Source: Pseudobutyrivibrio sp. YE44
GTDB lineage: Bacteria; Bacillota; Clostridia; Lachnospirales; Lachnospiraceae
Reading direction: 5' to 3'
DNA length: 64,000 nt
Assembly (NCBI RefSeq): GCF_900104335.1
Contig: NZ_FMXT01000011.1
Location: forward strand, 1-64,000
The notes under the pieces were generated by a model. The model was not told the origin of the DNA, searched no databases, and saw only the letters and a list, made by a program, of their open reading frames with translations. The translations under genes were made by a program, and so were the position numbers. This document shows, piece by piece, positions 17,529 to 34,963 of this stretch; positions within the stretch are counted from its first letter, which is position 1; each line of letters starts with the position of its first letter.

Positions 17529-17550
17529 ATGTCCATTTCCCCGCTATTCA

Positions 17551-18298
17551 CACCCTCTATCTTTTTTATATGCCAAGGCTCCCCTGCCCATATAATCCAG
17601 CCCCCGCATTACGACCTCCCTTGTAGTTACTAGTGCACAGCCTCACCTGCTGCTCCACCCGGGCCCGCCACTTATGTATTAACATGATTGAAAATGAATT
17701 TTGTATTTTCTTAATGCTACAAACGAGCTTTTGGTAGGTGTCTTTTATTTGGTGTTGCACTTTGAAGCTACTGTATGTATAGCTCAGACACTTATAGGTT
17801 AAAATAATGCTCCTCATCAGGGGATATAACTATCAGTTGCTTCCATACTCCGTTTGCTAAGTAAAATTTAAAAAGCAGGTTTTGAATGTGTAGTCACCGT
17901 GGCACATTCAACATCGTGTCTCAAGTGACCACTGCAGCCGCCGTCCTAGCGACTGCTGCCTATACATACAAAACCTGCTTTTTATTTTACTAAGCGCACT
18001 TCAAATTCCAGCAACTGATAGTTATATCCCCTGAGGAGAAGCATTACATAAAATAGAGTGTGTCTGAGAAATACATACTGTAGCACCCAAAGTGCAATGA
18101 ATATAAAAGACACCTACAATAAAGAAAGCGCAGTGTAGCATTTAGAAAATACAAATTCATTGACACTGTTAATACATAGGTGGCGGGCCCGGGTGTAGCA
18201 GCAGGTGTAGCTGTGAACAGAATTAATAGAGGGAGGTCGTAACGCGGGGGCTGATTTAATGGGCAGGGGAGCGTTGGAAGGGGCTAAACTGGAGGGTG
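17551..18298. repeat. Giant foldback element, copy A (about 748 bp imperfect palindrome)
   Basis: The left half (from CACCCTC at 17551) and right half (to GAGGGTG at 18298) are reverse complements with moderate divergence, centred near 17925. Easily seen mirrored pairs include CACCCGGGCCCGCCAC / GTGGCGGGCCCGGGTG, GGGGATATAACTATCAG / CTGATAGTTATATCCCC, and AAAAAGCAGGTTTTG / CAAAACCTGCTTTTT. The centre (about 17894-17959) is a non-palindromic 66-base loop with its own hairpins. Copy B at 33883-34617 has the same core in opposite orientation. The outer arms of A and B differ, while roughly 350 central bases are conserved. No ORF is credible; a short minus-strand ORF near 17566-17817 is an accident of the arms. 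Confidence 0.92.
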
Positions 18299-18319
18299 GG
18301 AATAGTGATGGGAATGGGG

Positions 18320-18375: not shown

Positions 18376-19047
18376 ATGAGTGAAGTAAAAGTAATTGAGA
18401 TTGGAGAGAGCGTATTTGCTGAAAACGAGCAGGCTGCTGAGAATATACGTGCTCAGATGAAGGCTCAGGGGACATTCTTTTTGAATGTAATGTCGGGGCC
18501 AGGTTCAGGAAAGACAACGACGCTTTCTGCAATTATTAACAGAATGAAGGATAGATACAAAATCGGTGAGATGGATGTAGATATCGAGACTAGTATTGAT
18601 GCCCAGAGGGTGGCTGATGCCACAGGGGTACAGTCAATCCAGATTCATAATATGGGGTTGTGCCATATTGATGCGGATATGACAAGTCGTGCGCTTATGG
18701 AGTATGACACTAAGGATTTTGATCTGTTGATTCTTGAGAATATTGGTAATCTTGTTTGTCCGGCGGAGTTCGATGTTGGAGCAAATAAGAACCTGATGTT
18801 GCTTTCTGTGCCAGAGGGGGATGATAAACCTTTGAAGTATCCTCTCATGTTCGAGATAAGCGACGTGGTGCTTATTAATAAGATAGATACCTTGGAGTAT
18901 TTCGATTTTAGTAAGGAAAAGGTTACTGAGCGTATTTTGAAGCTAAACCCAAATGCAAAGATCTTCTTTGTTAGCGGAAAGACTGGAGAGGGCTTGGACG
19001 ATGTTATTGCTTGGTTAGAGCAGGAAATTGCTGAGGCGAAAAAATAA
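18376..19047 (+). CDS. hypB: Hydrogenase nickel incorporation GTPase HypB (copy 1)
   Basis: A 223-aa GTPase that, with HypA, loads nickel into [NiFe] hydrogenase. It shows the P-loop SGPGSGKTTTL (about 37-47), DVDIETSIDAQRVA, the metal-site Cys-His region GLCHIDADM, ILENIGNLVCPAEFDVG and the base-specificity motif INKIDTLEYF. No His-rich N-terminus is present. The ATG at 18376 is preferred over a GTG three bases upstream because AGGAG at 18363-18367 is then 8 bases away. It stands directly before the ech operon. A second hypB lies at 46176. Confidence 0.93.
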   Translation: MSEVKVIEIGESVFAENEQAAENIRAQMKAQGTFFLNVMSGPGSGKTTTLSAIINRMKDRYKIGEMDVDIETSIDAQRVADATGVQSIQIHNMGLCHIDADMTSRALMEYDTKDFDLLILENIGNLVCPAEFDVGANKNLMLLSVPEGDDKPLKYPLMFEISDVVLINKIDTLEYFDFSKEKVTERILKLNPNAKIFFVSGKTGEGLDDVIAWLEQEIAEAKK

Positions 19048-19052
19048 TTATT

Positions 19053-19087
19053 TAGGCTTGAGGACTGTGTGGTCCCCAAGCCTTTTT
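19053..19087 (+). terminator. Terminator between hypB and echA
   Basis: The stem AGGCTTGAGGAC/GTCCCCAAGCCT with a TGTGTG loop is followed by TTTTTT. It separates hypB from the ech genes, so echA likely has its own promoter in 19088-19259 or depends on readthrough. Confidence 0.85.
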
Positions 19088-32998: not shown

Positions 32999-33880
32999 AT
33001 GGATGGCAAAAAAATAGAGCAGGAAATCCTCGAGATTACTGAAGAACTTATTAAAGATTACAAATCAGACAGAGCTATAGACAAGATGGATACCTTCCAT
33101 CAGCCAAACAAAGACAGCATCATCGACATCACAATGAAGCTGCTTCGTATTGTTTATCCTGGCTACTATCGTGATCACGTATACAAGGTGTACAATGTTG
33201 AGACCAACCTTAACACCCTTATGGAGGATGTAGTTTACAATCTTAACAAGCAGATTGCATTGATTCTTTGCTACAGTGCAGATTACTGCAATTGCTGCGA
33301 TGATGATTGTGCTGCTAAGGCTGAGGAGCTTTCCTTAGCATTCCTTAAGCGAATTCCACACGTAAGAGCCCTTCTTGATACTGACTTAGCTGCTGCTTAT
33401 GATGGAGATCCTGCTGCCACCAGCATCGACGAAATCATTTTTGCATATCCAGGTATTCTTGCTATTACAATATACCGCTTGGCTCACGAGCTTTACCTTT
33501 TAGGCGTGCCAATCATCCCACGTATTATGACTGAGTATGCTCATTCCAACACAGGTATCGACATCCATCCTGGTGCCACCATTGGTGAATACTTCTTCAT
33601 TGACCACGGCACAGGTATCGTAATCGGTGAAACTACCATCATCGGCAAAAACGTAAAGGTATACCAGGGCGTAACACTTGGTGCCCTTTCTACACGAGGT
33701 GGCCAAAACCTTCGTGGAGTTCGTCGTCACCCAACCATCGAAGACAACGTAACCATCTACTCCAACGCCTCAATCCTTGGCGGCGACACCGTCATCGGAC
33801 ACGATTCCATCATCGGCGGCTCAACCTTCATCACCGAATCTGTACCGCCTGAATCTCGTATCTACTACGACGTAAAATAA
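32999..33880 (+). CDS. cysE: Serine O-acetyltransferase
   Basis: A 293-aa enzyme that makes O-acetylserine from serine and acetyl-CoA for cysteine synthesis. An alpha-helical N-terminal domain is followed by a left-handed beta-helix of hexapeptide repeats with the signature [15 protein letters not shown], then [15 protein letters not shown] and [13 protein letters not shown]. The start at 32999 follows CAGGAG at 8 bases; an ORF extension to 32933 lacks a site. N-terminal length (about 150 residues) resembles the EpsC-like form. Its terminator hairpin is the left end of palindrome B. Confidence 0.93.
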
Positions 33881-33882
33881 AA

Positions 33883-34617
33883 CCACGCAAACCTGCGGCT
33901 CTTTTGATATCTCAAGGGGGCCGCTTTTTCTATGCCCACTCGCCGTCCTTTTACCCCCGCCTGCCCCGCCCCAGCCCCGGCACCGACCAATACGGCACAC
34001 CTGTTATCACAATCGCTAAACGTTGGTTTTCTAATTCCTGCTTTTCGCTTTTTTATTAGTGAGTGTTCTTTCAATTTATTGCACTTTTATCGCTACTGTA
34101 TGTATTGCACAGACACACACTATTTTTTGTAATGCGCCCCATCAGGATATATAACCATCAGCTGCTGGAATTTGGAGTGCGCTTAGTAGAATAAAAAGCA
34201 GGTTTTGTATGTATAGGCAGCAGCCGCTAGGAAGGCGGCTGCAGTGGTCACTTGAGACACGATGTTGAATGTGCCACGGTGACTATACATTCAAAACCTG
34301 CTTTTTTAATTCTACTTAGCAAATGGAGTATGGAAGCAACTGATGGTTATATATCCTGATGGGGCGCATTGTTTGAATTCATAAGTGTCTGTGCAATACA
34401 TACAGTAGCTTCAAAGTGCAACACCAATGAAAGTACACTCACAAAAGCTCAAATTGCAGGAATAAGAAAACCTAACGTTTCGCTCAAATGATGATAACAG
34501 GTGTGCCGTATTGGTCGGTGCCGGGGCTGGGGCGGGGCAGGCGGGAGACTTTGGAAAGCTGAGTGGGCATAGAAAAAGCGGCCCCAGGAAAGAGTCAGGA
34601 GCCGCAGGTTTGCGTGG
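33883..34617. repeat. Giant foldback element, copy B (about 735 bp imperfect palindrome)
   Basis: The left end CCACGCAAACCTGCGGCT (33883) is the exact reverse complement of the right end at 34617. Mirrored arms continue inward (GCCCCGCCCCAGCCCCGGCA, AATACGGCACACCTGTTATCA, CTACTGTATGTATTGCACAG) to a centre near 34250. The central loop (about 34216-34281) is the reverse complement of that of copy A with only two differences in 66 bases. Arm sequences next to the core are also shared with A, but the outermost arms are not. The ends contain GCGGC/GCCGC hairpins with TTTTT on both strands, so they act as terminators for cysE (left) and hypA (right). Confidence 0.93.
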
Positions 34618-34621
34618 AACT

Positions 34622-34963
34622 TTAGCTTACTTCGATGTTTTTTACGATGAAGTCGGTACAGCGCTGGAGCTTAAGGTTGGAGCTGCCGCATTCTGGACAG
34701 CGGTCCGAGAACTGGTGTCGCGTGAAGGTGGAACGGCAGTCGGTGCAGAGAACGGTGGATTCTTTGATGGTGGCGTCCACCTTGACTCCGGCTAAGGGGG
34801 TGCCTTCACTCATGACCTGAAGGTATTGTTCGATGATTTCGGGTACGTAGTCGCACTGGTCTCCTAAGAGGAGGTGGATTTTGTCTACATGGTTGACGCC
34901 CGCTGCGTCAGCCTGTTTTTTTACAAGGTTAAAAACGTATTCTGTCACTGCTAGTTCGTGCAT
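34622..34963 (-). CDS. hypA: Hydrogenase nickel metallochaperone HypA
   Basis: A 113-aa nickel/zinc protein that hands nickel to the hydrogenase large subunit together with HypB. The start is the ATG of MHELAVTEY (34963), giving the required MHE nickel-binding N-terminus, behind GGGAGGATAAA. A longer ORF reading is rejected. The zinc site is CTDCRSTF and CPECGSSN. Divergent from hypC with a 78-bp shared promoter region, and convergent with cysE across palindrome B. Confidence 0.94.
   Translation of the reverse strand: MHELAVTEYVFNLVKKQADAAGVNHVDKIHLLLGDQCDYVPEIIEQYLQVMSEGTPLAGVKVDATIKESTVLCTDCRSTFTRHQFSDRCPECGSSNLKLQRCTDFIVKNIEVS

Follow-up and report, generated by a model that had tools for sequence, protein, structure and literature searches.

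The TwoAYGGAY RNA (Rfam RF01731) is a curated RNA family with covarying base pairs, as given in Table 2 of PMC11701678, and the titration of CsrA by its GGA loops was proposed in PMC4333381. The portions of the TwoAYGGAY literature consulted make no mention of foldbacks or of mobility. The prokaryotic MITEs covered in excerpts of PMC10969869, among them the Correia elements, which are known to invert, and the terminator-like SPRITE elements, provide a second point of comparison. The foldback described here resembles them in being multi-copy and intergenic, in lacking a transposase gene, in its inversion and terminator-like hairpins, and, in a minority of copies, in its terminal inverted repeats. 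However, it differs from them in that it is almost wholly palindromic, in that its outer arms are private to each locus, and in that its mirroring continues beyond the ends to the stop codons of the flanking genes. A third comparison is template switching at inverted repeats, which according to the consulted parts of PMC8604942 and PMC8794818 causes homogenisation of the arms and inversion of the spacer. The present element likewise shows mirrored changes of several bases, homogenised arms and inverted spacers, but the cases described in those parts have short stems and small spacers, whereas here the arms are hundreds of bp long and the core that is turned measures about 480-570 bp.

The foldback between cysE and hypA and its RNA centre

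The window, i.e., the whole 64,000-nucleotide stretch of Pseudobutyrivibrio sp. YE44 that was analysed, contains a gap between two convergent genes that is filled by one near-continuous 735-bp foldback, copy B (33883..34617, no strand assigned), delimited by its arms, its fold and its distances from the stop codons. The two genes are presumably cysE and hypA, names taken over from the earlier note that fit the translations and the neighbouring hyp genes as judged by eye; their stops lie at 33880 and, on the minus strand, at 34622, with the palindrome ending 2 nt and 4 nt away, respectively. The outermost arms (33883..33901 with 34599..34617, 19 nt), a second arm pair (33917-33941 with 34561-34585, 25 nt) and a hypervariable C-rich outer arm with its partner (33956..34009 with 34492..34545, 54 nt) are each 100% complementary, and the inner arms are 85-93% complementary. 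Folded as a single strand, copy B reaches -488 kcal/mol vs. -221 +/- 7.6 kcal/mol for 20 shuffles (z -35). Its interior holds no ORF of 100 aa or more and thus, as in a MITE, no transposase gene.

A terminator-like hairpin, GCGGC..GCCGC followed by five T, can be read from the sequence behind cysE (33895..33929, plus strand), and the sequence and its alignment place a mirror copy with identical stem and different loop behind hypA (34573..34605, minus strand). A G+C-rich hairpin followed by a T run is therefore present on both strands, which is the sequence pattern of a bidirectional intrinsic terminator, and the symmetric hairpin between the convergent genes is probably such a terminator. A putative diverged terminal repeat, CTATGCCCACTC (33930..33941, plus strand), which can be compared with CTATTCACAGTC in the own-genome copies c8, c9 and c11, has its mirror at 34561..34572 on the minus strand; the end-motif search, allowing two mismatches, returned no terminal repeat in copy B.

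Copy A lies between a methyltransferase-like gene and hypB (about 17533..18317, minus strand), with its core opposite to that of B. The earlier note had described B as a second foldback copy in opposite orientation between convergent genes, with hairpins and T runs on both strands, and the arm complementarity, the fold, the alignment to copy A and the hairpins themselves bear this out. Its near-identical centre of 66 bases with two differences is likewise recovered, as the middle ~70 nt of A and B differ at two positions, although the similarity is broader than was noticed then, spanning 420 nt at 85%. The conserved core of that note stands in the alignments of the copies but its length does not, the unit common to the genome copies being 482 bp (34010..34491, plus strand). 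The outermost arms of A and B, called unrelated in the note, indeed fail to align, and the similarity of A to B stops at the core. As separate observations in the same region, hypB (18376-19059) is flipped in genome G017 (L191:16491-17174) relative to the window, where the window carries copy A, and a 99-nt direct repeat (1196-1294 and 2257-2355, 97% identical, 1061 nt apart) lies by the rRNA/tRNA cluster.

The centres of both copies exceed the TwoAYGGAY gathering score of 43, with 52.2 bits (E 1.6e-7) for B (34171..34331, plus strand) and 48.3 bits for A (17845..18006, minus strand). The Rfam model has 168 positions and the class label Cis-reg, whereas here the RNA is the middle of repeated foldbacks of 500-870 bp. 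All 25 alignment rows that hold the centre keep GGA in the first loop. The second AYGGAY-type loop has GGA in only five of them and is lost in A, B and 18 of the remaining 23 rows, and the membership of A and B in RF01731 rests on the model score. The retained TwoAYGGAY centre with its GGA loop may point to some RNA or DNA-hairpin role. If the copies were CsrA-sequestering sRNAs, they would titrate CsrA through two GGA hairpin loops; a CsrA gene does exist (G000 C12:92104-92259, E 6e-26), so the published idea survives with a single site in A and B, and the invariant first-loop GGA speaks for it too. As an account of the locus it is nevertheless unlikely, since the second GGA is missing from A, B and most other rows, and the arms, ends and inversions would be left unexplained, though CsrA binding could coexist with them.

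In three G003 copies (L278, L280 and L281), IS4-family insertion sequences interrupt the first TwoAYGGAY hairpin at one and the same position, in L278 with ten repeated bases flanking the insertion on each side, so this hairpin also acts as an insertion target. The foldbacks are over ten times longer than REP sequences. The role as target is nonetheless shared with the REP/BIME palindromes, which the consulted part of PMC1525189 describes as insertion targets.

Copies, ends and element-free sites in the genus

The core matches 31 places in the own genome, corresponding to about 29 loci, since c2/c4 and c17/c18 each seem to be a single copy that the assembly split between two contig ends. Five copies (c24, c26, c27, c29 and c30) have both arms and lack the TwoAYGGAY centre, and the stretch missing from c24 and c27 is bounded by the direct repeats CTTAGTAAA and CTTAGCAAA, resembling a slippage deletion. 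A search for the conserved unit in 41 relatives gave 23 matching genomes (own genome included), all of the same genus, and no match in 16 genomes of other genera; the core motif is present in named Pseudobutyrivibrio records, among them P. xylanivorans DSM 14809. RF01731 itself scores over the cut-off in 27 of 29 Pseudobutyrivibrio genomes, with up to 49 matches per genome, and in a phylum-wide sample in 30 of 398 genomes (26 of 267 genera). Around the centre, 70 of 74 loci from other species of the genus are self-complementary (E 1e-8), 56 of the 74 as palindromes of 521-868 bp. Among 19 loci from other genera, self-complementarity was for the most part limited to short stretches (about 110-330 bp) or not detected. 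The longest self-complementary stretch outside the genus (L305 of G169, 869-1701) measures 833 bp at 66% identity.

Terminal repeats survive in a minority of these copies. Copies c6, c8, c9 and c11 have ACTATTCACAG and CTGTGAATAGT at their two ends, often right after the T run of a host terminator. With at most one mismatch in each, both ends are found in five of the 31 own copies, i.e., these four and c21 (one mismatch), and in eight of 70 other-species loci, to which L247 and L248 can be added; in the remaining copies, B included, the repeats are degenerate or absent in a search to two mismatches. Exact ACTATTCACAG occurs 21 times in the own genome vs. three times for a backwards-motif control, and exact TTACTATTCACAG 126 times vs. 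five in 29 genomes of the genus (summed columns). MITE-like repeats of ~190 bp bounded by GTTACTATTCACAG ends are present at four places in the own genome (L194, L197, L200 and L202) and in several species of the genus.

The terminal repeats also bear on the origin of the outer arms. Read outside-in, these are C-rich (C 0.38 and G 0.16 overall; C 0.51 and G 0.18 in B), and the subfamily with intact ends (c6, c8, c9, c11) is not (C 0.16-0.21). In the end-keeping copies c21, L247 and L248 the C-rich stretch lies inside the terminal repeats, which makes it fast-diverging element sequence and not captured flank. The terminators outside the ends are host-side sequence turned mirror-image. A Rho-type role is conceivable for these C-rich arms.

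Conserved terminal repeats together with target-site duplications would, according to the earlier note, mark a simple MITE; the repeats are there in the minority described above, and inspection by eye of c6, c8, c9, c11 and the ~190-bp repeats showed no target-site duplication. No partner transposase with ACTATTCACAG ends was found among the candidates inspected. The IS4-family insertion sequence of G003 was tried as the mobiliser when its ends seemed common to both, and was rejected when its relatives and an end alignment gave it ends of its own, CAATGTCATTAAGTTAAG; its ends read CAATGTCATT.., and its relatives elsewhere in the genus sit inside other palindromes. An IS1182-like broken transposase was seen beside a ~190-bp repeat at L256. 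Between two distant end motifs at L245 lies a gene that we take, by eye, to be IS66-like. A literature search returned no match for the ACTATTCACAG motif and none for Pseudobutyrivibrio with inverted repeat.

Orthologous sites free of the element are known for two loci. The convergent gene pair of c9 adjoins without a foldback in all six relatives that have both genes close together (L323, L325-L328 and L330 in G003, G014, G012, G019, G041 and G018); of seven further loci inspected, six showed no left gene and one (G017) has it 1 kb away. At the B locus of G017, 4 bp separate the two stop codons, and among 27 genomes with cysE only this and the own genome have hypA beside it. These sites support insertion at the c9 and B loci, with loss in G017 as an alternative for B. 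The foldback is thus dispersed in many copies with element-free orthologous sites, as a MITE would be, and the unit is, as far as sequence goes, MITE-like, because a minority of copies keep terminal repeats common to the ~190-bp repeats and because the c9 locus is element-free in six relatives. Two other repeats were seen at the same kind of 3' intergenic site. One, terminator-like and ~100 bp long (GAGCC..AGCTCTT..AAGGCTTGxAGxCGTAAC..GGCTC), is present in several species, at the empty c9 sites L323, L325, L326 and L330 and at the cysE flank L105. The second, CCTTCCCC..GGGGAAGG with an inner part of GGATGAGG type, recurs at gene 3' ends, here at the cysE flanks L115, L120 and L122 and the c9 sites L327 and L328.

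Mirrored changes and core inversion

Whether a copy resembles itself or its family depends on the zone. In 21 of the 31 own copies (10 were dropped), the outer 60 nt are 82% identical (median) to their own partner arm vs. 52% when the same arm is compared between copies (210 comparisons), in line with the conserved core and locus-specific outer arms of the earlier note. The inner arms are 78% identical to their own partner and 81% to other copies, about equally alike within and between copies, which suggests that homogenisation is not uniform.

Flank comparison located orthologous copies in sister species, and their persistence across species suggests that transposition is now slow or over. 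In 14 orthologous pairs, 77 double changes keep the pairing and eight break it, vs. 9.5 doubles expected from the single-site rates if the two sites changed independently. Kept and broken doubles number 22 and 0 in the centre, 23 and 2 in the inner arms, and 32 and 6 in the outer arms. This set omits L076/L077 and L077/L081, whose orientation is ambiguous, and the poorly aligned L095/L142; with all 17 pairs, there are 105 pairing and 36 broken doubles for 18.5 expected. Core orientation was checked by blastn and the doubles were counted with orientation corrected, the orthologous loci being non-independent samples.

Such doubles could also arise by RNA-level selection, in which the whole 735-nt hairpin would be a functional RNA or terminator whose arms are kept by compensatory mutation. 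The strong fold, the curated status of TwoAYGGAY with its covarying pairs and the invariant first-loop GGA speak for it, and single changes (91 wobble, 171 broken) in part lean to wobble, so that some selection on pairing is possible. However, 53 of the 105 pairing-preserving doubles include a transversion, for which there is no route through a G-U pair, and the mirrored changes often sit in adjacent runs. Moreover, the mirroring extends past stop codons into coding DNA, the core turns around in situ, and the outer sequence differs at nearly every locus, all of which makes this explanation quite unlikely.

In-place inversion of the core was scored in 17 comparisons, of which four are clear, 11 not inverted and two ambiguous. 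In the four clear pairs (L167/L178, L182/L181, L187/L150 and L095/L074), turning the core raises the identity from 76-80% to 89-96%. These four could be taken for a phase-variable switch in which a dedicated recombinase, or RecA working on the arms, inverts the core. However, at the loci read no recombinase was seen close by, the comparisons are between species with one assembly each, and template switching yields the same outcome, which leaves the switch little probability. In the pair L103/L104, which lies downstream of cysE in G012 and G019, the arms are near-identical and the centre is a different TwoAYGGAY variant, as if it had been exchanged with another copy.

Palindrome boundaries and the proposed course of events

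The neighbouring genes of 79 copies are convergent in 26 cases, tandem in 45 and divergent in eight; in the window as background, four of 49 neighbouring gene pairs are convergent. The palindrome ends a median of 6 nt from a flanking stop codon (n 98) and 92 nt from a start side (n 62), and 17 of the 26 copies between convergent genes have each end beyond the stop codon or no more than 12 nt from it. This set left out seven of the 31 own copies, being very short or located at contig ends, other-species loci below 400 bp and one duplicate place; two of the resulting 81 had no neighbour on one side. The genes are simple ORF calls with some errors, and orthologues were counted separately.

At some loci the palindrome passes the stop codon. 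In G012 and G019, the final codons of the convergent gene, which by eye we take to be uppP, recur as a stretch of about 16 nt following the cysE stop (CGGCATCATCGGGGTA in G019). The two genes at L137 finish in an identical 20 nt, AGGGACTAACACCCACGCCC, and the genes flanking c26 have ACGGCGAATA in common across their ends. These common gene ends indicate that mirroring has run through stop codons. The broader idea of the earlier note, a mobile core with outer symmetry made locally, holds in part: the mirrored changes and the palindromes past stops support local symmetry, and the implied lack of conserved ends is not supported.

Taken together, copy B is probably a copy of a non-autonomous, MITE-like foldback in which DNA template switching has made the arms alike, lengthened them and turned them around. 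Copies would first have inserted at gene 3' ends, often beside terminators, a step supported by the element-free orthologous sites at two loci and by the terminal repeats in a minority of copies. The long quasi-palindrome would then serve as a substrate for replication template switching or equivalent arm-to-arm conversion, in which switching within a strand copies one arm over the other and switching between strands turns the core; mirrored changes and in-place inversions are observed as sequence patterns, from which we infer the enzymology. Because arms and core are far longer than in the published cases, homologous recombination between the arms may contribute. Finally, copying would overrun the element, so that adjoining terminators and last codons are mirrored until selection on the flanking genes stops the spread; the boundaries at stop codons are observed, and selection is their presumed cause. 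An ordinary MITE, with arms that are inherited, decayed terminal repeats and no active homogenisation, would account for the terminal repeats, the ~190-bp relatives with the same ends and the element-free sites, but is very improbable, since decay would make the arms diverge, whereas outer arms are more alike within a copy than between copies and the 54-nt outer arm of B is perfect.

What stands out as unusual is how strongly and how far one arm is copied onto the other around a known RNA family. TwoAYGGAY, a family reported in 2010 and long unexplained, is now placed inside a repeated, probably mobile foldback, which offers a natural series, in many copies and several species, for following how template switching builds and renews long palindromes, with protein ends affected too. 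More tentatively, the element may be a palindrome-spreading mobile foldback that mirrors its surroundings, i.e., 3' ends, terminators and last codons, and flips its RNA core in place. If this is true, much of the TwoAYGGAY covariation would come from DNA-level arm copying and not from RNA selection. Base-pair covariation in such elements need not imply RNA function.
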